Virus record (IMG/VR): IMGVR_UViG_3300042989_000010
Coordinates: 1-28,354 of that record
Strand: one strand, 5' to 3'
Source of the DNA: a virus
Length of the DNA: 28,354 nt
The notes under the pieces are model-generated. The model was given only the letters and a program-made list of their open reading frames with translations, ran no database searches and had not been told where the DNA came from. The position numbers were made by a program, and so were the translations under genes. Shown here piece after piece: positions 1,013-27,860 of the stretch; positions within the stretch are counted from its first letter, which is position 1, and each line of letters opens with the position of its first letter.

Positions 1013-1999
1013 TTATGCTACAGCCACTCCTGAGCTAAGCACATAACTTGTACTCCAGGTGGTATTTGCAGTTATACAGACAACTTGTATCGCATCAAAT
1101 GCCGCTGCTGATGTTACGGAACCTGCTGTTGAAGTGGCAGTTTGACCAACCTGAATAGTTTGTCCTGCTCCTGCCGCTAAAATCCAACCAGCAGCGCCTT
1201 TACCTTGGATTGCCACTACAGAACCAAGTGCTGCCGTAGTTGGTAAAGTGATAGTCGTTTGGGACGCATTACCTACTACGTACCCTGTATTTACTGCTGC
1301 AGCCTGAGTTGTTCCTGCAATATTTGCCCATGCCATACCTGATGAGCCAGTAGCGGCAATACTAATGCTATTAGACCCTGGTGTTATGGAAATACCGGTT
1401 CCAGCTGTTAATGAGGCTGCTGCTGGACTACCTGCTGAGCTTCCAATAACTAGCTGCCCATCTGTTAAAGCAAGCCATGTGGGGACGCCAGTTGAATTGG
1501 TTGATAAAGAGGCACGATTCGTGGTTGCCAAACCAGAAACAGTATTAGCTGAGCCTGCATACAAAATTGTTGAGACCGCATAGGTATCAGCGTAGCTAGA
1601 TGTTGACCAAACTGGTATTGCAGCATTCGCTGATTGAAAAACACGACCAGCAGCAGCAGGATTGGCTAGCATGGATGGAACGCCGGTGTTATCCGTCACT
1701 AGTACGGACCCATTTGCGCCTGTTAAACCTGAAACGGTTGTTCCACTAGATGCATAATAAGCAATCTGATTTGCGGTTCCGCTATTCACTATCCCAGAAG
1801 CACCTGATGTTGTAGCCAATGTTCCTGATGTAGGGAAAGTTACGGCTGTGTTTCCTGTTATTGTACCTGCAAATGTAAATGCGCCTGAAAACGCAGTGTT
1901 CCCACCAACGGTAAAAGTGCCAGTATTAGCAACGCCAGTTCCACCAAATGCAGGTGTTAAGGGGACGGTTCCATTGTTTAAATTATTATTCAGTGCCAT
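1013..1999 (-). CDS. Tail-fibre-like protein, paralogue of the 405-aa neighbour
   Basis: 328 aa; SD AAAGGA precedes the ATG at 1999. The N-terminal part has fibre-type repeats (AFGGTGVANTG; then FPTSGTLATTSG). The last ~130 residues align by eye with the C-terminus of the next gene upstream: shared landmarks include SNSISI/SNSLTI, AAAVNTGY/AAAVNSGY, LGSVVAIQG/LGSVIAVQG, GWI and VVCITANTTWS/LVCVVANTAWS. This C-terminal beta domain recurs in phage fibre and structural proteins. The pair probably arose by tandem duplication and could provide alternative or co-assembled receptor-binding tips. There is no endosialidase or lyase motif I can recognise. Function is inferred from family resemblance and position at the tail end of a P22-like structural block. 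Confidence 0.75.
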   Translation of the reverse strand: MALNNNLNNGTVPLTPAFGGTGVANTGTFTVGGNTAFSGAFTFAGTITGNTAVTFPTSGTLATTSGASGIVNSGTANQIAYYASSGTTVSGLTGANGSVLVTDNTGVPSMLANPAAAGRVFQSANAAIPVWSTSSYADTYAVSTILYAGSANTVSGLATTNRASLSTNSTGVPTWLALTDGQLVIGSSAGSPAAASLTAGTGISITPGSNSISIAATGSSGMAWANIAGTTQAAAVNTGYVVGNASQTTITLPTTAALGSVVAIQGKGAAGWILAAGAGQTIQVGQTATSTAGSVTSAAAFDAIQVVCITANTTWSTSYVLSSGVAVA

Positions 2000-2017
2000 T
2001 TATAAAATCCTTTTATG

Positions 2018-3235
2018 TTAAGTAATAGTGTATCCCGAAGTAACAGGCCCGTACAGAGACCATGCCGTATTAGCAACAACGCAGACAAGTGTGATTGAGT
2101 CATATTGATTTGCTGATGCAATGGCGCCACCAGCACTGCTGGGAACAGAGCCAATGTGAACCACTTGCGCTCCTGGCGCCTGAATAATCCAACCACCCGT
2201 ACCGTATCCTTGTACGGCAATTACAGATCCTAAAGCAGCTGTTACTGGAAGTGTTACGGTGGTTAATGAGCTATTTGCTGTTATGTATCCAGAATTGACC
2301 GCAGCTGCTTGAGATGTTCCTGATACATTGGACCAAGCAAGGCCGCCACCACCCGCAGTTGCACTAATAGTTAATGAATTTGAACCTGCAGATACAGTAA
2401 TTCCGGCTCCTCCAGTTACTGATGCTGCTTGAGGTTGCCCACCTGTTGAACCCATAATAAGCTGCCCATCTAGCATGCTATTTGACCAAGTGGGAACACC
2501 CGCATTTGTGGAAACTAGAGAGGCTCCATTAGCGCCAGTGACTTGACCAACCACGTTCGCAGCAGAGCTATATAACAATCTATTGGCAGTTGTACTGGAT
2601 GGATAGGTCGCTGTCGTCCAATTAGGGGCGCTTGAGGAGCCTGATTGGAGTAATTGCCCAGCGGTGGCTGTTCCCGACAAAATTGCGCCTGTAGTAGCGT
2701 TACTATAAAAAATACCGCCATTGTCTGCAGTAAGGGACGCTCCTGTCCCACCGTTAGCTAGAGATACCGGAAATGTTGGAATAGAACTAGCAAGAGCTAA
2801 AATGCCTGATGTACTTGGAAGTTGGATTGTTGGTGTTCCAGCAACTGCCTGAGCTTTTAATGTGGCCAGACCACTTGTAGAGCCAGTAAATACAGCGGTT
2901 GTTATTCCAGAAATACTATTTAAGGAGTTAACAGAAACTCCATTTAAATTAACCGAACCGGTCCCTTTTGATTCTATATCCAGATTAATATTGGTATCAG
3001 CACCTAAAGCCGATATTGTTGGTGCAAATGTTGTATTCCCACTTTCAATAAACACATAATTAACTGCAGAAATTCCTGCGCTAGAATATCCTAAAAGCAA
3101 ATTACCGGAACTATCTTCAATCCCTGTGCCAGGAAAACTGAATTTATAGTTATCCGAGTTTCGAAGCCCAACTACAATGTCATCTACACGTACATTATTG
3201 CCAGCCGTAAACTGACTAAACTTAATATCTGCCAT
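2018..3235 (-). CDS. Tail-fibre-like structural protein
   Basis: 405 aa; strong SD (AAAGGAG) ahead of ATG 3235. It begins with a short non-repetitive segment (MADIKFSQFTAGNNVRVDD) that may attach to the tail, then a beta-rich Gly/Ser/Thr body containing PLANGGTG-like (LANGGTGASLTADNGG) and ATAGQLLQSGSSSAPNW segments of the kind common in phage fibres. The ~130-residue C-terminal domain is shared with the following gene (328 aa). It lies 18 bases upstream of that gene and 21 bases downstream of the 118-aa gene, consistent with one transcript. Probable role: receptor binding or fibre shaft. Composition and paralogy support this; no enzymatic motif is seen. Confidence 0.75.
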   Translation of the reverse strand: MADIKFSQFTAGNNVRVDDIVVGLRNSDNYKFSFPGTGIEDSSGNLLLGYSSAGISAVNYVFIESGNTTFAPTISALGADTNINLDIESKGTGSVNLNGVSVNSLNSISGITTAVFTGSTSGLATLKAQAVAGTPTIQLPSTSGILALASSIPTFPVSLANGGTGASLTADNGGIFYSNATTGAILSGTATAGQLLQSGSSSAPNWTTATYPSSTTANRLLYSSAANVVGQVTGANGASLVSTNAGVPTWSNSMLDGQLIMGSTGGQPQAASVTGGAGITVSAGSNSLTISATAGGGGLAWSNVSGTSQAAAVNSGYITANSSLTTVTLPVTAALGSVIAVQGYGTGGWIIQAPGAQVVHIGSVPSSAGGAIASANQYDSITLVCVVANTAWSLYGPVTSGYTIT

Positions 3236-3256
3236 TCTAGGCTCCTTTAGAAAATC

Positions 3257-3613
3257 TTAGTTATTTGTTCCTAATGCATACAGAATGACGCTTACATCCG
3301 TGGTGGCTGTTGTGCTAAAAAAATGTATTACATCGCCTGCCTTAACTTCACGGCATATATAATATTCACCAGTGAGCATCTCAGAAGTAGTAGATGCAAA
3401 AGTGGTCCCTGCTGTTGCTGCAGCTGTAGCATTTAGGGCCACCCAAACTTCGCCAGCTGCAACACATTTCATTAAAGCTTTGTATCGTGGAGCTACTCCG
3501 GGAACTGTCAATGTTGTATCTGTTGTGATAGCCAGTTTTGCACTGTATTTCAAATCGGCAAATCTTAAGCCAAAATCAGTAACAGTTTGTTGAGCGATAT
3601 ATGGTGTGATCAT
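3257..3613 (-). CDS. Small virion structural protein (118 aa)
   Basis: Starts at ATG 3613 after an AAAGGA ribosome-binding site. The 118-residue product is beta-rich, without a signal peptide or transmembrane helix. Features include PRYKALMKCVAAGEVWVALN, then an Ala/Thr-rich turn and YYICREVKAGDVIHF, ending in VSVILYALG. Small proteins of this shape occur near tail or head decoration genes in podoviruses, and I take it for a virion component (tail or decoration), but I cannot name the family. It lies between the large 745-aa tail protein and the fibre-like genes in a closely spaced series with the same orientation. Confidence 0.6.
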   Translation of the reverse strand: MITPYIAQQTVTDFGLRFADLKYSAKLAITTDTTLTVPGVAPRYKALMKCVAAGEVWVALNATAAATAGTTFASTTSEMLTGEYYICREVKAGDVIHFFSTTATTDVSVILYALGTNN

Positions 3614-3631
3614 AATTTAATCCTTTAAATG

Positions 3632-5869
3632 TTAAGCAATAATACCGAGACGACAATCGGCTGAGTAGTGAAAATTAATATAGCTCTCTTCTGTTCCGTC
3701 TTGAACATTAGATGCTGTTCCAATTACTATTTCAGAATTAGACCTATAAGTTACACCAAAGTGTCCATTGTTTAATTGAACCCATCCAATAATATTTGGT
3801 GTTAATCCAGCTTGTAATGGCTTGTCTACAGGATACCCTCCCGGGATGACGCCTTTCCATGAAAATGTATAATATACATTCGCTGCAGCACCTGAAGCTG
3901 GAGAATATAATACAACAGTAGGAGTTGTTCTTTTTGGAACATTATATGTAAATCCAAATGTTCGCGTTGCTATATCAGCATCCGAACCATTAGATGTAGG
4001 GTGAGCACCCTGTTGAGCACACAATGCTCCAGAAAGACTTACGTCGCCTGCTTTTGCTCCTGCATTATAACTTTTCTCATAATAGTACTGGCATTCAGAT
4101 AAAACATCTGAAGGTGTTTGGGCAGAAGGACGAGTTGGCAAATCTCCTTTATTCAAGGAAATAGACAGAACATTCAATACGGGTTTTGTAGTCCATGCAA
4201 AGGTAACAACAATAGCGAATTTATTTGTATCATTAAATTGAGCGCCATCTACTACTTCCCAGCCAGAGAATTGAATGTCATTGTCAGTTGTTGGATTATT
4301 TGCAGTGACAATATCGCGAGGCGTATCAAGTCCACTTCTTGGTATAAAACTCCATCCAGCTGCAGGCCCTGTAAATTCACCCGTCGCACTAAGAGACCCC
4401 AGTGTTGCAGGAATAATAGGAACTACTGAGGCCGCTGTCCCAACTAACAAATAAGCTCTTACCGTAGTAACACCTACATTGGCTGCTAAATAGGCAGCAA
4501 TATTAACACTAAGCCTTGAAAATAACATTTCCTTAGCTTGAGCACCTGTCAGAAATTGCATCAAATATACGGAATCATTATCGGATGCAGGCGTAAATTG
4601 CATTGCATTCGTTATTGAATTTCGCGCCACAGCCACATTGCCTACATTCCTACAGCAAATGGTTTGGTCCCATGTATAATCAGGAGTTGCCGCTATCGTT
4701 GCTACCGTTTCTCCAAATTGAGCAGGATTTAACGGAAAATCCCATGCAGTTAGCAAACTAGGAAGTGGGGATATAATCGTACGGGGAATATAATAATCCC
4801 CCATAAGTGCTTGGTCTCTATCTGATGATGTCTCATCATATTGAACTATATCTGCAGCGATTGCATTAAATGTCGGTATAACCTGAACACTGCTAAGTCT
4901 AACTTTTGCGCTGGGCTGCAAAGATATATAGATGTTTATAAATCCATTTGCGCCCGACAAAGCATTATCTGATTCAGGAATTGCGCTAGTGCTTCCACTG
5001 GAATATAAAGCATAATCTGCAAGACCCGGTATATTCTTCTCGAATATTTTTATGGGAACTGTAGACTCACTACCAGAAGAAGCTTGATAATACATCTTTA
5101 CGCTTGTATCTAAAACAAGCATATTCTTTGCTACTAAATTTGTTGACAAGAAAATTGTATTTTCAGATGTTGTAGACCACAATCCTGAATTATTAGCGAA
5201 CTTTTGCAACAATTTGCATGAAGATATCGTGGGGTCTACCGTAATCTCAATAACATAAGGTGGACTTGTGGCGATCTTTAAATCACCCGCTACCGCAATC
5301 CGTTCAACAGTTACATTGCCTGTCCCACTTAATAAAAAATTCCAATTAGGTGCAAACTCAAATACCTGATCTGGTCCTGCTGTTACGGTATATGTGGTAA
5401 CCGATGGCGTTAAAGTGGGAACATCGTTAATTAATATTTTAGTAAATTGGGGATTTGATACCTGATTTTGTACAGGCAATGAATTGATATTGCTTATAGA
5501 CTCATCGGCAATCACGCCATTTGGCCATGCTTCTCGAGTGAACTGCTCAACTCCATTGGAGTCTTTTACCACCACATAGTATAAGTCAATAGCGCTACCG
5601 TTATCATCATATGGATAATAATATATGACTTCATTGTCACCTCCGGCATTTTGGACTGTACCTATGGAACTTAATGTCAATGGATTATCTAATGGAATAT
5701 ATTGATAATTAGGAGGAGCCCCAGTAAGTTGATATACTGGTTTTGATGTTATCCTAGAAGCATCTCGATAAAATGTAATTGTTCCGCCAGCCAAAGGAAG
5801 GCCTGTATCTTTATCAAGAAATGCCTCTTCCAGAGGTCCATCGGTTATATAATGCGGGTCTAGTGCCAT
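3632..5869 (-). CDS. Large tail protein / fibre-type (745 aa)
   Basis: 745 aa with SD AGGAG upstream of ATG 5869. The N-terminal ~130 residues (LDKDTGLPLAGGTITFYRD, YQLTGAPPNYQYIPL, EVIYYYPYDDNG, VEQFTREAWPNG) form a recognisable phage tail N-terminal module that likely docks on the tail. The remaining ~600 residues are beta-rich with no recognised catalytic motif; a segment at roughly 590-720 (CQYYYEKSYNAG..., then WVQLNNGHFGVTYRSNSEIVIG) resembles C-terminal domains of tail or collar proteins. It follows directly the ejection-protein genes, where P22-like phages place tailspike or fibre genes. It could be a tailspike equivalent or a fibre adaptor for the downstream fibre genes; the sequence does not decide between these. 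Confidence 0.7.
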   Translation of the reverse strand: MALDPHYITDGPLEEAFLDKDTGLPLAGGTITFYRDASRITSKPVYQLTGAPPNYQYIPLDNPLTLSSIGTVQNAGGDNEVIYYYPYDDNGSAIDLYYVVVKDSNGVEQFTREAWPNGVIADESISNINSLPVQNQVSNPQFTKILINDVPTLTPSVTTYTVTAGPDQVFEFAPNWNFLLSGTGNVTVERIAVAGDLKIATSPPYVIEITVDPTISSCKLLQKFANNSGLWSTTSENTIFLSTNLVAKNMLVLDTSVKMYYQASSGSESTVPIKIFEKNIPGLADYALYSSGSTSAIPESDNALSGANGFINIYISLQPSAKVRLSSVQVIPTFNAIAADIVQYDETSSDRDQALMGDYYIPRTIISPLPSLLTAWDFPLNPAQFGETVATIAATPDYTWDQTICCRNVGNVAVARNSITNAMQFTPASDNDSVYLMQFLTGAQAKEMLFSRLSVNIAAYLAANVGVTTVRAYLLVGTAASVVPIIPATLGSLSATGEFTGPAAGWSFIPRSGLDTPRDIVTANNPTTDNDIQFSGWEVVDGAQFNDTNKFAIVVTFAWTTKPVLNVLSISLNKGDLPTRPSAQTPSDVLSECQYYYEKSYNAGAKAGDVSLSGALCAQQGAHPTSNGSDADIATRTFGFTYNVPKRTTPTVVLYSPASGAAANVYYTFSWKGVIPGGYPVDKPLQAGLTPNIIGWVQLNNGHFGVTYRSNSEIVIGTASNVQDGTEESYINFHYSADCRLGIIA

Positions 5870-16391: not shown

Positions 16392-16576
16392 TATTTCTTC
16401 CCCAATTTCTTTAATGTCATTGCCAATGTCGCACGCTTTTTCATCATTGGAGATTTGCTCTTCTCAGCTTTCTCTAGCTTGGCTTCAGGGATTTTTTCAC
16501 CCTTTTTTATATGAAGAGCCTGTCTCAAAGCTCCGGGATGCTTTATGGCTTTTTTTATAAAATTCTTTTCTTTCAT
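16391..16576 (-). CDS. Small basic phage protein (61 aa), conserved hypothetical
   Basis: 61 aa, start overlapping the portal stop as ATGA, so translation is coupled. Sequence: NFIKKAIKHPGALRQALHIKK, then GEKIPEAKLEKAEKS and RATLAMTLKKLGKK. The KKPGALxxALHV...GEKIP...KLxKAxxS...RAxLAxTLKK pattern recurs in phage genomes close to portal or terminase genes. It is very basic and helical; function unknown. Placed between portal and the DUF6496-like gene, both linked by start/stop overlaps, suggesting fixed stoichiometry with portal. Confidence 0.75.
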   Translation of the reverse strand: MKEKNFIKKAIKHPGALRQALHIKKGEKIPEAKLEKAEKSKSPMMKKRATLAMTLKKLGKK

Positions 16577-18723
16577 TCTGCTCTTGCCTCTGTTCTTTCA
16601 AATGTATCCGCCATTGCCGTGATATCTCGCACTAGCTCACGTGCCGTCTCTGCATCCTGCTGGGCACCCTTTTGTTCTATCTCAAGGCCTTGCATCTGAA
16701 TCTTAGCCATCGTCTCCATAAACTTGGTTTCTGAATCTCTTTCTTTCAGTGCCAAGTTGGCTGCATCGAGTCTAGATTTCTCTTGTATGGACATAAGGCC
16801 GAGCTCCTCAATGCTCGGATCCTGTAGAGAGCGCTGTGCCTGGGCCATTTCCATTTCCTGGCGCTGTTGATCCATTTGCGCTTGATGTTGCATTTGCTGA
16901 GCCTGCATCTGTTGTTGTTGCTGCTCGCCTTGTTGTGCTTGTTGTCTTTGCTCTGCCATTTGTTTTTCAAATTCGGCCGCTTTCTCTTTGAGGCCTTCGA
17001 TTCCTCGAATTTCAATATTATCCAAGAGGATTTGCAGACCCTGCTCATTCATAAATTGACCGAAAATAGGAGATGCCTGCATTAAGCTTGTGATAGTGTT
17101 AAGCGCAATTTCTTTTTGCATTGCAAAGTTGACGCCTGTCTCGACTTTGACCTCCAAAGAGTTGGGGTCGTAATTCATAAAGATGGAGCCCTTTTTATTT
17201 ATTTCTACATGAGAACGTTTCCCATCTGGCAGAATAATCGGCAGACTTCTTGGGGTTCTATAATATTTAGGAATTAAATCTAAAACAATTTGAGCGATGC
17301 GATTAAGCCCTTTAATATAGCCAACCACATAGGGCATCGATGCGTTATTGCTTTGTAGTGCTGAACGAGCGAATGCAATGCCTGACATATTCTGTTGATT
17401 CTGACCTGCTGCCCCATCGTATGAACCCAAAATAACCTGCGTTATCTCGTCTGACATTCTGAACGTTTGACTAATTTCGGGGGGTATTGGAGTACGATTA
17501 ACCTCGCGAGGGGGAGGCAGTTGTACGTCTGGACTGCGACTGTCCAAGAAATGATTATAAATAAGAGTATCCGCTTTCTGCACATTCTGATATGCAGTTT
17601 GGTAATCCTCTGGAATCGACTCGATAGCAACGATGAATTTATGCTGAATAGTATTTTCAAGCTCATTAGCCAAGGACTGACCAGCGTAGTTTTTAAGTCG
17701 CTGTATTCCTTTCGCGTGATAGACATAAGGTCTCGTCATCTGTCCTGATGAGCCACCTTCGCTAATGTTGACTGAGTTGCCGTCTACAAATACGAGGGGC
17801 AAATGCTTAAAATCCGTCTCAACATATTCTAGCACTTGTGATTCACATAAGCGATATCGACAGATGGTTTCAAATGTTGTTATACGAGGTTCGCCTACTG
17901 GAATAGGGGGTTGCTCTATATTTCCTTGAGCTTCCCACATTTCCATGAATTTCTTATAGGCTTTCTCCGTTACTGTGTGCCCATTAGAAAGTTTTACAAT
18001 CTTTTCGCGCTTGCATTTTTTCTCGTAGAAATCACAGACTAGGACAATGTCTTCTGATTCATTCTTAAAAGACCAATTAAAGCCAGCAAGAGAACGTGTA
18101 AAAGTCATCTTGCTGGTAGCATCCTTGCCATACTGCTCCTCGAAACTGTCGCGCGTCATTGGGGATAGCTCTCCGCAATAGCGCCCATCTCCTTTGTGGC
18201 TATCTCTAGCTAAGGGATCGAAAAAACATAAAGTGGGATCAAAAACTCTGGTGACGCAAATCTTCTGCTCAAAAGACATCTCGTTAACATAATCGGTCAT
18301 CACTTTGACTACAGAGAACCCGCCTGCCAGCTGGTCGGTCATTACATTATAGGCAAGCATGTCATTGGAGGATTCAGAAAAGATAGCGCCTAGGTGTCCT
18401 TCTAATACTTTCAGGGTCTCGGTAAACTCGGGGGTCAAAGAAGAAAGCGGGATACCATCGGCTGCACGAACATTTATAGAGGGCTGCTGTTTGGCAAATT
18501 CGCCACGTAAACGGGATATATAGGCTTCTAGGATGTTAAATTCTATGGTGGGTCTGTTTGTGGTTTCTAGAGCCGCAATTTCTTGCTGGTTCATAGAAGA
18601 CCTGAAGACGAAGGTCATAAACTCGTTGAACCGGTCGACGTTTTCGCTAAAGTACTCTTGAGCTTCCTCAACTGTTTTCTTTAGGTCAACTAAACGGTCA
18701 GAATATTTTTTGGCTACTTCCAT
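16573..18723 (-). CDS. Portal protein, P22 gp1-like
   Basis: 716 aa, nearly the same as the P22 portal (725 aa). ATG 18723 lies inside the 3' end of terL (26-base overlap), with AGGGAA upstream. The order of segments follows P22-type portals: N-terminal helices with NRPTIEFNILEAYISRLRGEFAKQQPSI, the DQLAGGFSVVKVMTDYV region, a wing with RVFDPTLCFFDPLARDSHKGDGRYCGE, and a stem/crown region (QVILGSYDGAAGQNQQNMSGIA). The C-terminal part is Gln-rich coiled coil (about residues 577-625). It forms the dodecameric DNA channel at the unique vertex, where TerL docks. The neighbour relation terS-terL-portal is classical. Confidence 0.9.
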   Translation of the reverse strand: MEVAKKYSDRLVDLKKTVEEAQEYFSENVDRFNEFMTFVFRSSMNQQEIAALETTNRPTIEFNILEAYISRLRGEFAKQQPSINVRAADGIPLSSLTPEFTETLKVLEGHLGAIFSESSNDMLAYNVMTDQLAGGFSVVKVMTDYVNEMSFEQKICVTRVFDPTLCFFDPLARDSHKGDGRYCGELSPMTRDSFEEQYGKDATSKMTFTRSLAGFNWSFKNESEDIVLVCDFYEKKCKREKIVKLSNGHTVTEKAYKKFMEMWEAQGNIEQPPIPVGEPRITTFETICRYRLCESQVLEYVETDFKHLPLVFVDGNSVNISEGGSSGQMTRPYVYHAKGIQRLKNYAGQSLANELENTIQHKFIVAIESIPEDYQTAYQNVQKADTLIYNHFLDSRSPDVQLPPPREVNRTPIPPEISQTFRMSDEITQVILGSYDGAAGQNQQNMSGIAFARSALQSNNASMPYVVGYIKGLNRIAQIVLDLIPKYYRTPRSLPIILPDGKRSHVEINKKGSIFMNYDPNSLEVKVETGVNFAMQKEIALNTITSLMQASPIFGQFMNEQGLQILLDNIEIRGIEGLKEKAAEFEKQMAEQRQQAQQGEQQQQQMQAQQMQHQAQMDQQRQEMEMAQAQRSLQDPSIEELGLMSIQEKSRLDAANLALKERDSETKFMETMAKIQMQGLEIEQKGAQQDAETARELVRDITAMADTFERTEARAE

Positions 18724-21331
18724 AGTTTTTAGCGTTCCCTGCTATCAATCGATCGTTAAATGTCTTATTCAACTTGCTTAAGATTCCACTCCGTGTGTCA
18801 TCTTTCTTATCTATACTATATACGGTCTTGTCTATTAGTGCCAGTCGTATGGCATCTGCGGCCGTATCACAAATATCATCAGTTTTATGACTTTCATTGG
18901 CTGTTATTGATGTCATATGCTTTATACACATCGACTTATGCTTGGCATCTTCAGTAAATGATAATAATTTGGTTGCTATATATGGCTGAATCTCAAGGAA
19001 ACGCTGCGTCTTACTTCCACTTGCTCTCGTCCTTTCTATTTCTCTTATTGTTATTCCACGCATCTCTTTAAGAACGCTCACCAATGTAACGCCAGTTGAT
19101 TTCTTCTCAATAGCGGCCATAATTGGAGGTAATCTATGTCGCGTGCATTCCGTATAAAATTCAATGAATGCGTCTTTTAAATCTTTAGGTTCAATTCTTA
19201 TTTCTGTGCAATCCAGCCAGTGCAACCCCAATTCTCCAGATTTTTTTCCAAAATTAACAATTTCATATACACCCCAAAATGAAAATACACTAGCATCATT
19301 CCATGATTTAGATGTTTCTGCCGTGTCACACGTAATAAATGTAACCAACATCTCTGGCTCTTCATCGAGTGTTATAAACCACTCGGGTTTGAATAATCCA
19401 CCAGTAGCAGGTATAGGATTTTGCTGGAATTGAGATGCAAACACATATGGATCGGTCTGCTCTTTAATAAGAAGCGATTTTAAAGGGAATGCTTCTGGAT
19501 ATAACGCATTCCCAACAGAATCAATACTTTTCAAAATAACTTGTTCCCACTCATATCCATCTTTTCCATCCAGGAGATACGCTGCAAGGTCTGCTTCATG
19601 CACCCTTTGCCCTATGTATATGTATGGAACGTTCACACCCCTAGCGCGCTGCTGGATGGTTTCCTTGTAATTCGCTATGACGTTTTCCCTCATAGATTCC
19701 GAGTGCACCTCGTCTATTTTGTGTAAGTCATCGCAATTACTTACTATTACAGGGTCATATTGACCACATCCAATCAAAAAGTTATGATTATCCTGTATTT
19801 CTAAACAGTAGGTTTTGTCCGTATGACCAATATTTTCAACGAAGAGTGGCGTCCTGTACCCGGATACGAAGGTCTTTATTCTGTTTCTAATCTTGGCAAT
19901 ATTCGAAGCGAAGATAGAATCGTTTTTTACCCTAAAGGAACCAAAAGGATTGCTAAAGGAAAAATTAAAAAACAAACTCCTGGCCACCAAGGAAAATATT
20001 GGAGGGTTACTATGACCTGTAGCGAAGGAGTCCACAAAAATAGGAGTGTCCATCAGGTGGTATGCTGGGCGTTTATAGGCCCACAAACAAAAGGAGTCGA
20101 AGTGAGACATAAAAATGGAAATGGACATGACAATAGACTTGAAAATCTTTGTTACGGAACTAAGGTTGATAACATGCAGGACGCCATTAAACATGGAACA
20201 TTTCAAATGGGAGAAAGCCACTCTGACGCCAGATTTAGCACGAAAGATGTAGTTCATTGGGTTATGAGTGACAAAAGTGCCAAAGAACTGGCTCTTGAAT
20301 ATGGAACTAGTGATGTTTATATTCAAGCAATTCGAAGGGGGCGAACAAGGGCCAGAGAAACTGAAGGCGCTAGAAGAATAAAAGTAAGACTTAAACATCC
20401 TTCCAAGTTCGATCTTCTTTCTGATTATCATCTTCGCATTATTAAAGATTTCTCTATAAAGCAAAGAGATGCCGCTCTTATTATTGGTGTGCCTCAAAGA
20501 ACGATATGGAGATGGAGAAATTATCCTGCTATTACTGCTCAATAAATCCTTTGCCTGAGTCCACCCATCTTCGGTTAATATTTTATGACAAGGCGTGCAT
20601 TCTATATAACTTTCATCGCTCAGTTTTATCTTTAATATTTCGCTTCCGGCATTCTCGAACCAATTATTAATTTTCTTAAGTTCTGCTGTCTTTGTTTTTA
20701 AATTATAAGACCAAATTTTGATATCCAACTTTTTTGTAACTATATCACCAATTGATATTGATCCCATCTCTGTTCTTACTAACTGGTTATAAGGAAAGCA
20801 GATTATTGCCCCAGAGAATCTATCTAGACCAGGTAGCCCACCATCCTGCCCAACAATAGCCCCAGCTGAACCAAAAGCTGCAATAGAACCGCCAGCTGTA
20901 GTTTGAAAGAATTCTTTTGCTTTACTATCCCAACGTATAGATACATCGAATAAGTACTTATAATGACGCAACCCAATAATACGCTTAATAGTCTCGGTAT
21001 GCTTAGCAGCGAGAGACTTTGAATAGGATATATACAGATACCTAGAATCAGGATATTTAGACAGAGTCCAAGCCACCCACATGCATAGGAAAGTCGACTT
21101 ACCGTGACCTGGAGGCACGTTGATAATGAGTCGTTGAGAGTTAAGTTGTAGTCTGGCGGCTCTCGTGAGGGCTCTTGAGATGGTAATGGCATGTGCTTCC
21201 CTTCCTATAGGTTGGCTTATGATAAAATCTCGACCTGTTAAAAGAGGATAGAATACCTTGCAGAACTCCAGAAGGCTACCTTGAAGCTCTGCGACCATTG
21301 TTTCTCGGTCTAGGTCAACTTTCATCTTCAT
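18698..21331 (-). CDS. terL: Terminase large subunit interrupted by an in-frame intein
   Basis: 877 codons; without the intein (residues 178-532) the protein is 522 aa, near P22 TerL (499 aa). The ATPase half has Walker A at 73-80 (PPGHGKST), TTAGGSIAAFGSAGAIVGQDG before the insertion, and Walker B GAII|CDDLHK restored across the splice (I177/C533). IYIGQRVHEADL (571-582) resembles the coupling motif. The nuclease half has D669 (TCDTAE), E742 (AAIEKKSTG) and D819/D822 (KTDDICDTA), the RNase H-like acidic set. It cuts and pumps DNA into the prohead. It overlaps the 139-aa gene upstream by 17 bases and portal by 26. Splicing is required, because the insertion separates the Walker B aspartates. 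The start is a matter of choice between two close ATGs. Confidence 0.92.
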   Translation of the reverse strand: MKMKVDLDRETMVAELQGSLLEFCKVFYPLLTGRDFIISQPIGREAHAITISRALTRAARLQLNSQRLIINVPPGHGKSTFLCMWVAWTLSKYPDSRYLYISYSKSLAAKHTETIKRIIGLRHYKYLFDVSIRWDSKAKEFFQTTAGGSIAAFGSAGAIVGQDGGLPGLDRFSGAIICFPYNQLVRTEMGSISIGDIVTKKLDIKIWSYNLKTKTAELKKINNWFENAGSEILKIKLSDESYIECTPCHKILTEDGWTQAKDLLSSNSRIISPSPYRSLRHTNNKSGISLLYREIFNNAKMIIRKKIELGRMFKSYFYSSSAFSFSGPCSPPSNCLNINITSSIFKSQFFGTFVTHNPMNYIFRAKSGVRVAFSHLKCSMFNGVLHVINLSSVTKIFKSIVMSISIFMSHFDSFCLWAYKRPAYHLMDTPIFVDSFATGHSNPPIFSLVARSLFFNFSFSNPFGSFRVKNDSIFASNIAKIRNRIKTFVSGYRTPLFVENIGHTDKTYCLEIQDNHNFLIGCGQYDPVIVSNCDDLHKIDEVHSESMRENVIANYKETIQQRARGVNVPYIYIGQRVHEADLAAYLLDGKDGYEWEQVILKSIDSVGNALYPEAFPLKSLLIKEQTDPYVFASQFQQNPIPATGGLFKPEWFITLDEEPEMLVTFITCDTAETSKSWNDASVFSFWGVYEIVNFGKKSGELGLHWLDCTEIRIEPKDLKDAFIEFYTECTRHRLPPIMAAIEKKSTGVTLVSVLKEMRGITIREIERTRASGSKTQRFLEIQPYIATKLLSFTEDAKHKSMCIKHMTSITANESHKTDDICDTAADAIRLALIDKTVYSIDKKDDTRSGILSKLNKTFNDRLIAGNAKNYGSSQKIF
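19736..20800 (-). mobile_element. Intein in TerL Walker B, with antisense homing endonuclease gene
   Basis: Residues 178-532 of the TerL frame. N-terminal splicing part (178-262): Cys1 in CFPYNQLVRTEMGSISIGDI (block A), TPCH at 246-249 (block B TxxH), then GWTQAKDLL. C-terminal part (504-532): YCLEIQDNHNFLIG (block F) and DPVIVSN ending in N532, followed by Cys+1 (C533). The Hint part is about 114 residues, the size of a mini-intein. Between these parts the sense frame has no LAGLIDADG or HNH motif. It is instead the exact antisense of a complete HNH gene. The penultimate residue is Ser instead of the usual His. Splicing competence is inferred from conserved Cys1, TxxH, block F His, Asn and Cys+1. 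Confidence 0.93.
19823..20545 (+). CDS. NUMOD4-HNH homing endonuclease, antisense inside the terL intein
   Basis: 240 aa. NUMOD4 at about residues 8-29 (EEWRPVPGYEGLYSVSNLGN). HNH_3-type domain with H77 (VHQVVCWAF), H96 (VRHKNGN) and N104/N108 (NRLENL). A helix-turn-helix follows (about 138-173: STKDVVHWVM...YIQAIRRG), and a second one at 202-233 (RDAALIIGVPQRTIWRW). This is a full-length homing endonuclease of the NUMOD4/HNH class. The gene lies wholly in the intein, opposite to terL, with codons aligned triplet to triplet; its ATG is antisense to H503 and its TAA to L263. Only a weak ribosome-binding site (AGG about 11 bases upstream) is seen. None of its 11 Leu or 14 Ser codons is TTA, CTA or TCA. 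It would cut intein-free terL alleles; activity is inferred. Confidence 0.92.
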   Translation: MTNIFNEEWRPVPGYEGLYSVSNLGNIRSEDRIVFYPKGTKRIAKGKIKKQTPGHQGKYWRVTMTCSEGVHKNRSVHQVVCWAFIGPQTKGVEVRHKNGNGHDNRLENLCYGTKVDNMQDAIKHGTFQMGESHSDARFSTKDVVHWVMSDKSAKELALEYGTSDVYIQAIRRGRTRARETEGARRIKVRLKHPSKFDLLSDYHLRIIKDFSIKQRDAALIIGVPQRTIWRWRNYPAITAQ

Positions 21332-22421: not shown

Positions 22422-22546
22422 TCTTTTTCCATTATCTTATTAATGCGTTTCCAGTCCTGTAACGTATCCAATACGCTCATAATTACGCATACGATGATAC
22501 TTCCAGATATCGTATACATAAGAAACGCAAATGCAGTATCAATCAT
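22418..22546 (-). CDS. Single-membrane-helix miniprotein (42 aa)
   Basis: A 42-codon frame starting at ATG 22546, coupled to the terS stop as TGATG, and ending in a TGA that overlaps the next ATG (ATGA). The sequence has a hydrophobic helix from about residue 5 to 26 (AFAFLMYTISGSIIVCVIMSVL) and a short charged C-terminus (QDWKRINKIMEKE), so an inner membrane protein with N-out or N-in topology not decided. The double start/stop overlap strongly suggests translation. It could be a small holin-like or membrane-anchor peptide; this is a guess. Confidence 0.6.
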   Translation of the reverse strand: MIDTAFAFLMYTISGSIIVCVIMSVLDTLQDWKRINKIMEKE

Positions 22547-23178
22547 CAGTATTCCTTCTTATTAACTTCTGCCAACTGCGCCTTTAAAGCCATAAGCTCG
22601 GCTTTAATTGCCTCGTTCTCGCCTTGTAATTGCTCTACAGCTTTTCGGTCACCAAATACTGTCGGGTTAAGTTTGCTAGCATGCCATTTTTTCGTATCGA
22701 CAATTAGGCGTCTTGAAGCAATGAAGCCAGGATCTACTTTTTGAGACCCCTGTTGGTCAGAAATATATTCAATTTCTTTTGAAACTTCTTCGCAATCTTC
22801 GGCCATTAATTCTGTTTGATGTAATTTAGCTAACCTGTAAGCGGCGGAAAAGTCAGGATAATCCCAGCGCCATTCATTAATAGTTGAGCGATCAGGCATC
22901 CTATTGTCGGAGGCACAAAGGTCTTTTAAGCTCATCTCGCTAGATGCAACACGCCTAATAATATACTCGGATAACTCTTGTGTATATTTCGTAGGCCTTC
23001 CATTAAGTGGTTTTTCTTTTTCTTTGCGCTTCATAATTTCTTTAAAAGCAGCCGTCTTTCGATCGTTATATTCTTTTAAATGTGCCGGTGGAGGACGTTT
23101 TGGCTTATCAGTATTCTTTGTCGAACTCGGTTTGGATGTGCTCTTTGGCTTTTCTAGGTTTTCTCTTTTCTTTGTCAT
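22546..23178 (-). CDS. terS: Terminase small subunit
   Basis: 210 aa. After a basic, Pro/Lys/Ser-rich N-terminal tail (1-55) comes GRPTKYTQELSEYIIRRVASSEMSLKDLCASDN, then MPDRSTINEWRWDYPDFSAAYRLAKLHQTELMAE, the helix-turn-helix region typical of Sf6/P22-type small terminases, and later VDTKKWHASKLNPTVFGDR, another family hallmark. The C-terminus (about 181-208) is a coiled coil (EQLQGENEAIKAELMALKAQL). The protein recognises the phage pac site and recruits TerL. The usual long basic N-tail could bind DNA. It overlaps the upstream zinc-ribbon gene by 71 bases. In P22 the pac site lies inside this gene; no pac sequence can be told here by eye. Confidence 0.88.
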   Translation of the reverse strand: MTKKRENLEKPKSTSKPSSTKNTDKPKRPPPAHLKEYNDRKTAAFKEIMKRKEKEKPLNGRPTKYTQELSEYIIRRVASSEMSLKDLCASDNRMPDRSTINEWRWDYPDFSAAYRLAKLHQTELMAEDCEEVSKEIEYISDQQGSQKVDPGFIASRRLIVDTKKWHASKLNPTVFGDRKAVEQLQGENEAIKAELMALKAQLAEVNKKEY

Positions 23179-23481: not shown

Positions 23482-23850
23482 CTAGGTTTTGAGATATTTT
23501 TTTATCTCATTTTGCGCTTCTTCGGCACTGTATGAAATGACAATGGTATAATTCTGGGCGTGCAACTTATCATGAAATTCTTTCTGAATTTTAGATACTT
23601 TTCCCTTGGGCGATTTCATTTCAATAAATAGGCCTGGGATCACTTTAGCAGTAATTTTATCAAAACGGGGCACCAGCAACTGTAAATCGGGCACCCCTGC
23701 AGTTAGGCCCATAGCCTTTGCACGAACACGCTGCATCACCGCAAGATTAACCCCAGCTGGGTAACCTATTAAAAGGTCGCCAATCTCGGGATATTGCAAC
23801 TTAAACCATCTCAAAAGCGCTATCTGCTCTTGAGACTCTTTATATACCAT
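23482..23850 (-). CDS. VRR-NUC domain nuclease
   Basis: 122 aa, the size of a stand-alone VRR-NUC protein. Motifs: ESQEQIALLRWFKLQYPEI at the N-terminus, GVPDLQLL with D55, LFIEMKSPKGKVSKIQ with E77-x-K79 and Q89, then helix and strand (YTIVISYSAEEAQNEI). This is the PD-(D/E)xK core with the usual D...ExK plus Q. Such phage nucleases are often Holliday-junction or flap type enzymes resolving branched DNA before packaging. The place upstream of terS fits a late DNA-processing role. Substrate preference is inferred. Confidence 0.88.
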   Translation of the reverse strand: MVYKESQEQIALLRWFKLQYPEIGDLLIGYPAGVNLAVMQRVRAKAMGLTAGVPDLQLLVPRFDKITAKVIPGLFIEMKSPKGKVSKIQKEFHDKLHAQNYTIVISYSAEEAQNEIKKYLKT

Positions 23851-26782: not shown

Positions 26783-26937
26783 TGTCAAAGGAAAACATAA
26801 TAGGGATTTTATGTATGTTAATTTTATATACTGCTTTTTTTTACGTGTATGGACTGCATGTTCAAAGCTTAAAAAGAAAAGAAGAGCTGATGCAAAAAGC
26901 AGAATCAGCAGTCGATGAAAATAAAGGTGAGTCATGA
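26782..26937 (+). CDS. Single-membrane-helix protein (51 aa)
   Basis: ATG 26782 overlaps the previous TAA (TAATG). The 51-aa product has one hydrophobic helix at about residues 5-22 (NIIGILCMLILYTAFFYVYG), then a charged cytoplasmic helix (SLKRKEELMQKAESAVDENK). It ends with an ATGA overlap to the YqaJ exonuclease gene. Two tiny membrane proteins next to each other in a phage early operon could form a pair, for example in exclusion or membrane anchoring; this is speculation. Confidence 0.6.
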   Translation: MSKENIIGILCMLILYTAFFYVYGLHVQSLKRKEELMQKAESAVDENKGES

Positions 26938-27860
26938 GTTTAACGGCAAAACAGCTAGAGGAAAGATTGGATTATATATGCGGCTCGGATGCCGCAACGA
27001 TTTGTGGTATATCCCCATATGGGGATAAGATCAAATTATGGCAGGAAAAGACAAGACAAATTCATGCTGAAGACATTTCAGATAAGCCTTATATAAAGGC
27101 TGGCAATTTCTTGGAGCCAGCGGTAAGAGCCTGGTTTGAAAAAGAAACTGGAATGACTGTGACCTTGGACCCAAAATTAATTGTACATAAAGATATTGCA
27201 TATATGGCCGGCAACATAGATGGATGGGTTGGAGATGATGCCATATTCGAAGCAAAAACCGCCTCTTTTGATACAGGCTGGGGTGAACAAGGAGATAATA
27301 CAATTCCTGATCACTATCTATGCCAGGTCTCTCATTATATGGCAGTATGCGATGTTAAGCGTGCATATGTAGCTGTTTTAATCAGAGGAAATGATTTTAG
27401 GCATTATGTGATTGATAGAAATTATAAGCTTGAAGAGATGCTCCTGCGGACTCAGAAATCATTCTGGGATTGCGTAAGAACGAGGGTTGCACCTCGACCT
27501 GCAAGTGGAGCTGAAGTAATTAGCCTGCATGGATACAAAAGTATTGAAGAGCCCGTTGTGGCAAATGGGGATATACAGCAAGATTTAATACAACTAGAAA
27601 AGGTGAAACAAACTATAAAAAAGTTGGACTCTCAAAAGTCAGAACTCGAAGACAAGATTAAAATATTTATGGGGCAAAATGATACTTTACTGTCCCAGTC
27701 AGGTAAAATAGCAGTTACGTGGAAATCTGCAAAGAGTACTAAACGTTTTGATTCTGCATCTTTAAAAGAAGATGATGTCGAAACTTATAGCAAGTACGTT
27801 AAAGAATTTTCCGCATCACGTCGATTTATTTTAAAAACGAACGAAGGACTAGAACTATGA
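26934..27860 (+). CDS. YqaJ-like (lambda Exo-type) alkaline exonuclease
   Basis: 308 aa; ATG overlaps the preceding stop (ATGA). YqaJ core: GSDAATICGISPYGDKIKLWQEKT (17-40), GNFLEPAVRAWFEKETG (57-73), D96 (NIDGWVG), E106-x-K108 (FEAKTAS) and Q131 (HYLCQVSHYM), the conserved PD-(D/E)xK residues. The tail (about 210-255) is coiled coil, and the last part (VTWKSAKSTKRFDSASL) is a family-like C-terminal extension. It degrades one strand of double-stranded ends to give single strands for the RecT annealing protein that follows. ATGA overlap with recT agrees with partnership. Its last codons hold the second copy of the 19-base repeat. Confidence 0.92.
   Translation: MSLTAKQLEERLDYICGSDAATICGISPYGDKIKLWQEKTRQIHAEDISDKPYIKAGNFLEPAVRAWFEKETGMTVTLDPKLIVHKDIAYMAGNIDGWVGDDAIFEAKTASFDTGWGEQGDNTIPDHYLCQVSHYMAVCDVKRAYVAVLIRGNDFRHYVIDRNYKLEEMLLRTQKSFWDCVRTRVAPRPASGAEVISLHGYKSIEEPVVANGDIQQDLIQLEKVKQTIKKLDSQKSELEDKIKIFMGQNDTLLSQSGKIAVTWKSAKSTKRFDSASLKEDDVETYSKYVKEFSASRRFILKTNEGLEL
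27833..27851 (+). repeat. 19-base direct repeat, copy 2 (recT ribosome-binding segment)
   Basis: Identical to 26344-26362. Here it is inside the last codons of the exonuclease gene and supplies the AAGGA Shine-Dalgarno for recT (ATG 27857). Confidence 0.85.

Follow-up and report, generated by a model that had tools for sequence, protein, structure and literature searches.

The locus described here raises the question of whether the two functions of a mobile intein, splicing and homing, can be divided between two proteins that are encoded on opposite strands of the same stretch of DNA. Usually, mobile inteins are regarded as fusions of a splicing domain and an endonuclease domain. We propose that the phage gene for the terminase large subunit, terL, carries a mobile intein together with its homing endonuclease, the latter being the product of a separate, fully overlapping antisense gene, a reading to which we assign a probability of roughly 0.84 and in which splicing, expression and cleavage are inferred. 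Counting against it, there are no splicing, transcript or cleavage data.

The terL intein and the gene on its opposite strand

The window, i.e. the whole stretch of DNA analysed, comprises 28,354 bases and is a virus record from IMG/VR. Its terL gene (18698-21331, minus strand) is, by ORF translation, a single open frame of 877 codons, coding for a terminase large subunit precursor of 877 aa (PHROG 38 terminase large subunit, 4.4e-78) with an intein in frame. The surrounding genes are those of an ordinary phage and were identified by profile search as a P22-like portal (16573-18723), an Sf6-like small terminase (22546-23178), a VRR-NUC nuclease (23482-23850) and a YqaJ-type recombinase (26934-27860).

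The intein comprises 355 residues from Cys1 to Asn355, followed by a cysteine at position +1 (19736-20800, minus strand; TerL residues 178-532), and is matched by the profiles Pfam Intein_splicing (2.3e-10) and NCBIfam TIGR01445 intein_Nterm (7.6e-11). The initial annotation of this DNA had placed an intein at the same coordinates, and the profile search of the sense frame bears this out. The N-extein (residues 1-177; 20801-21331, minus strand), which ends with FSGAII in the Walker B region, was delimited by alignment with the intein-less relatives L014-L016 and L001 (TerL identity 74-83%), in which the site is empty; L016, for example, reads LPGLDRFSGAVIIDDCHK where the window has FSGAII/CDDLHK (the slash marks the insertion point). 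The C-extein (18698-19735, minus strand), likewise delimited by alignment, starts with CDDLHK. Structural modeling of the intein using AlphaFold yielded a confident Hint domain, composed of Hint-N (intein residues 1-97; 20510-20800, minus strand; block B TPCH; pLDDT mostly 82-93) and, from about residue 311, Hint-C (residues 311-355; 19736-19870, minus strand), in which blocks F and G were also recognized as motifs. A Foldseek search with the Hint model matched DnaE and RecA inteins. The linker in between (residues 98-310; 19871-20509, minus strand), a read-through of the antisense gene, had a pLDDT below 50 and is predicted to be disordered, for which the prediction alone is weak evidence. 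The alignments behind the structure models left out the row of Escherichia phage BUCT618. An earlier partition of the intein into 85, 241 and 29 residues thus holds with regard to the layout of Hint and linker, while its sizes have to be replaced by those of the modeled domain.

Among 13 members of the family described below, C1, T69, H72 and N355 are invariant, and the +1 cysteine occurs in 13/13. The in-frame Hint fold and profile, the splice residues and the empty site meet the criteria for a class 1 (Cys1) intein, and it is inferred, in the absence of splicing data, that the Hint domain splices itself out of TerL. Neither Pfam nor the structure model matched an endonuclease family in the sense frame of the window intein, in line with what had been noted previously for the linker. 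That terL is a pseudogene was ruled out by the conservation of exteins and splice residues. The alternative raised along with the first description, a simple inserted gene that breaks terL, was not seen either: exteins, splice residues and frame are intact in 15 records.

On the plus strand, positions 19823-20545 code for a putative NUMOD4-HNH homing endonuclease of 240 aa (Pfam, AlphaFold), the codons of which are exactly opposed to those of terL and extend into the coding sequence of both Hint halves. The protein consists of a NUMOD4 domain (residues 7-63; 19841-20011, plus strand; Pfam 1.3e-13), an HNH_3 nuclease domain (residues 76-119; 20048-20179, plus strand; Pfam 5.9e-11; 3.5e-8 to 1U3E, I-HmuI) and a helical, HTH-like C-terminal extension (20399-20527, plus strand; weak HTH_17 match), and its AlphaFold model (mean pLDDT 84.6) matches I-HmuI. 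Both the complete 240-residue antisense protein and the distribution of two proteins over two overlapping frames had been proposed from the letters alone, and both are now backed by family profiles, Hint in sense and NUMOD4-HNH in antisense. A chance antisense ORF was ruled out by the Pfam scores, the codon test described below and the recurrence in 15 members. Long antisense ORFs do occur opposite free-standing HNH genes, mostly in the same phase; those opposite four such genes (L146, L153, L167 and L173) did not match any family.

Putative expression signals of the antisense gene reside in the Hint-C coding sequence. In the window, the HNH start codon ATG (19823-19825, plus strand) lies opposite the codon for His326 of the intein (CAT), and is preceded by an SD-like AGTAGG (19807-19812, plus strand) opposite the T-Y-C codons of block F and by a promoter-like TTGACC-17-TATGAT (19760-19788, plus strand) opposite block F-G codons. 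The latter is not significant in the window alone, where a promoter scan scored no better than shuffles.

Recurrence of the layout in other phages

IMG/VR and a genome collection were scanned, and subsequent HMM searches of six-frame ORFs identified 14 more intact cases. As far as can be judged from sequence, what had been described as a single odd locus is a recurrent family with evidence of horizontal movement. In addition to near copies and a fragment, the family comprises at least 15 distinct intact members, which derive from BUCT618, IMG/VR contigs and a Clostridia MAG (L093, the only member from the genome collection) and were found in distant terL genes. In each intact member TerL is one continuous frame, and in 15/15 every HNH codon lies exactly opposite a codon of terL. 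Five insertion points are used, i.e. directly before CDD (window, L013, L093, L107), CIDD (L009, the locus of which is truncated by the contig end downstream of the intein), CLVDD (L061, and L182 as judged by its sequence) or CIIIDD (L004, L010, L062, L076, and L233 as judged by its sequence), and, farther upstream, between GFG and CG (L067, L108, L110).

In Escherichia phage BUCT618 (L004, OM735461.1), the TerL of which is ~30% identical, the TerL intein and the NUMOD4-HNH ORF on the opposite strand were detected by tblastn. The GenBank entry lacks the HNH gene (L004:3685-4356, corresponding to OM735461.1 1001-1672), which codes for 223 aa, and describes TerL as a single protein of 789 aa with no intein noted. 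No further member was found among the isolated phages scanned, and the BUCT618 intein was not found in E. coli genomes; plasmid matches to the HNH protein covered less than 80% of it. The fragment mentioned above, L243:1-914, is a contig-end piece of a terL intein with antisense HNH, in which Hint-N is spread over two frames by a frameshift or an assembly error. Gordonia phage Clown (L177:1817-4576) has a TerL intein in a similar region without an in-frame endonuclease family (Pfam), and no antisense HNH of the NUMOD4-HNH kind was found at this locus.

The boundaries of the antisense gene are fixed with respect to the Hint domain. In 13/13 members examined closely the HNH ATG is located opposite a Hint-C His codon (e.g. 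FVEYIG[H]VDETYC), and in these 13 the stop codon is opposite Leu or Ser, inside or just beyond block B. SD-like and promoter-like sequences are found upstream of HNH, within the block F-G coding sequence. When the Hint-C peptides were kept and their synonymous codons resampled according to the codon usage of each locus, none of 300 resamples reached the observed sums, which were 56 for SD (resampled, 26.7; sd 6.5) and 120 for the promoter (resampled, 102.4; sd 3.5). As the members are related, these results are not independent trials, and a clear SD is lacking in L107, L108 and L110.

Evidence for movement between phages and for selection on both frames

An indication of mobility comes from L182 and L061, whose DNA is 89% identical within the intein and 71-74% identical in the exteins, with the shift in identity located at the intein borders. 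About half of the extein codons differ at the third position, as against about a quarter of those in Hint and HNH. Such a pattern is a homing signature, suggesting that the whole intein has moved. L108 and L110 differ by ~22% in their exteins and share a tract of ~470 bp with only 5 differences, which spans the front half of HNH and Hint-C and ends 5 nt past the intein; no further such tract was present in the 5.4 kb compared. As the intein is only partly included in this tract, the tract shows recombination between alleles and not simple homing. Where groups are supported, the trees of Hint and HNH are congruent with each other and conflict with the extein tree: both join L067 with L108/L110 and L062 with L004/L010, while the extein tree places L108/L110 with L093 (100/99), L067 with L061/L009 (97/96) and L062 with L076/L107 (100/100). 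As deeper Hint and HNH branches are weak, agreement is demonstrated for these two groups only. Taken as phylogenetic evidence, the intein appears to have been transferred between phages.

An alternative would be nested parasitism by two separate selfish elements, one of them a free-standing HNH gene that invaded a mini-intein in reverse orientation and does not mobilize it, its own target being elsewhere, perhaps in the intein itself. The L108/L110 tract, which is not an entire intein, would fit this, as would the locus of L007, which comes from a phage related to that of the window and in which a free-standing HNH gene resides beside an intact terL (1908-4034). The L007 protein is 45% identical to that of the window and lacks the C-terminal helical extension present in embedded members; a quick tree that includes both embedded and free enzymes clusters the window HNH with it (SH-aLRT 95) and not with other embedded ones. 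However, of 80 loci identified by terL extein patterns, five have a Hint domain and all five of these have the antisense HNH, the start and stop of which lie at fixed places within the Hint coding sequence, and the unit that moved in L182/L061 was a whole intein with edges at the intein borders. We thus regard nested parasitism as unlikely.

Other free-standing NUMOD4-HNH genes are found near terminase genes in L178 (410-3473) and L203-L209; together with that of L007, they place such genes near intact terminases in several unrelated phages, as if homing on the terminase region. A terL-targeting enzyme may have been captured by an intein, or may have escaped from one; both are possible. Based on the fixed phase and the fixed start residue, we favor, as an inference, a single origin of the layout with the endonuclease sometimes exchanged later. 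The free-standing relatives beside intact terL offer a way to test how a lone homing gene may become a mobile intein. Apart from terminases, the DNA polymerase III alpha gene of Klebsiella phage vB_KpnS_p4727 (L175:123-4378) is seemingly in two pieces, the first with an odd tail, separated by a same-strand NUMOD4-HNH gene, possibly a fractured gene. The ribonucleotide reductase gene of Campylobacter phage vB_CcoM-IBB_35 (L180:1571-4856) has three annotated intein stretches, one of which contains a same-strand CDS of unknown function.

Given this phase, any TTA, CTA or TCA codon in the HNH gene would place a stop in the terL frame. None occurs in any of the ten members tested, where 2.8-16.6 would be expected for each from the codon usage of the locus (window, 8.7 expected, P about 10^-4.8; summed log10 P of -46.6 over the ten genes, uncorrected for relatedness). 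The HNH genes of L182 and L233 are likewise free of them; by comparison, each of six free-standing HNH ORFs contains 2-7. Comparison of close pairs further revealed which frame is constrained. Between L182 and L061, differences at terL positions 1/2/3 amount to 101/66/249 in the exteins, 10/4/30 in Hint-only sequence and 53/5/8 in the overlap, where they mostly correspond to HNH third positions, and HNH is 93% identical compared to 74% for the linker. For L108 and L110 the respective values are 81/35/194 in the exteins, 13/2/32 in Hint-N only and 32/8/7 in the overlap. By this pattern of substitutions, the overlap is constrained in the HNH frame, and Hint and exteins in the terL frame. In most member pairs linker similarity equals the expectation from the HNH protein alone; extra selection on the linker was considered and rejected, as the excess in L004/L010 and L108/L110 is explicable by unsaturated synonymous sites. 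The linker suggests that an intein can bear ~200 residues that are selected solely against stops. Overall, the comparative evidence indicates that the antisense protein has been under selection while the sense frame was kept open.

These data also bear on the possibility that the HNH gene is decaying and only the splicing function of the intein persists. Homing genes often decay once they are fixed, as described by the homing cycle, and Arg95 occupies the position of the I-HmuI Asp that precedes the catalytic-type His, so that nuclease activity is not assured. The catalytic-type residues His96 and Asn104 are invariant, and the Arg is also found in free-standing relatives. Strong constraint in the HNH frame of two close pairs, intact HNH frames in 15/15 members, conserved motif residues and recent transfer render such decay very improbable. 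Least of all do we expect that antisense transcription mainly regulates terL with the HNH protein being incidental since, although a transcript would overlap terL mRNA and the promoter-like signal recurs among members, this leaves both the conservation of a nuclease-type protein and the transfer with edges at the intein borders unexplained.

We therefore return to a mobile intein with an antisense endonuclease gene. In the proposed mechanism, the terminase carries a Cys1/+1Cys intein in its Walker B region, with a linker that is read-through of the NUMOD4-HNH gene. The terL mRNA would be translated through the intein, and Hint would excise itself together with the unstructured linker to yield active TerL. 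The antisense gene would be expressed from the promoter-like, SD-like and ATG signals in Hint-C; the signals are seen in the sequence, their use is inferred. The free HNH protein may then nick or cut intein-free terL near the Walker B codons, an enzyme action that is likewise inferred, and repair would copy the whole intein into the cut allele, a transfer for which sequence comparison provides the evidence. The need for TerL would keep the linker frame free of stops, and selection on the endonuclease, presumably for homing, would keep the HNH protein intact. With more reserve, we think it rather probable that such elements are widespread: dual-coded mobile inteins of ~1 kb with opposite strands in fixed phase and with promoter, RBS and start of HNH in the codon choice of Hint-C, which home across distant terminases at several sites near Walker B.

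Comparison with known systems

No report of an antisense homing endonuclease gene (HEG) in an intein was found in the open-access literature, in keeping with the initial annotation, which knew of no well-described example; an earlier description elsewhere is not excluded. The gene pair is unusually long and fully nested, with comparative evidence for selection on the antisense protein. With regard to the enzyme, embedded HNH proteins share domain order and fold with I-HmuI (PDB 1U3E), which is intron-encoded, and differ from it by the added C-terminal helical domain and the Arg in place of Asp. An HEG opposite in strand to its mobile splicing element is known from nuclear rDNA group I introns, where I-DsqI is expressed and active (PMC9548176). 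These elements, however, are RNA with no frame to keep open and carry a His-Cys box enzyme (PMC9548176), whereas the terL element is a protein intein with both strands coding; the insert reads as a continuous Hint intein in frame with TerL and, as judged without an RNA-family search, does not qualify as an RNA intron.

Full-length mobile inteins such as TliVMA carry the homing endonuclease in frame (PMC8966425). The terL element similarly unites Hint and endonuclease inside a host gene that is conserved, and the endonuclease DNA occupies its usual place in the gap between Hint-N and Hint-C. In contrast, the endonuclease is encoded as a protein of its own on the opposite strand, the linker is without a family match and predicted to be disordered, and the criterion of an endonuclease fused in frame with Hint is not met. 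In fractured genes, an HEG resides between the halves of a split intein (Dassa et al. 2009, cited in PMC3229294). Splicing domain and endonuclease are separate proteins from one locus there as well, but TerL and its intein form an unbroken frame which the endonuclease gene overlaps on the other strand, and the criterion of host gene and intein in two ORFs is not met. Thus, the partnership of endonuclease and intein would here be kept by two independent proteins from one DNA stretch, a third solution beside fusion and fractured genes.
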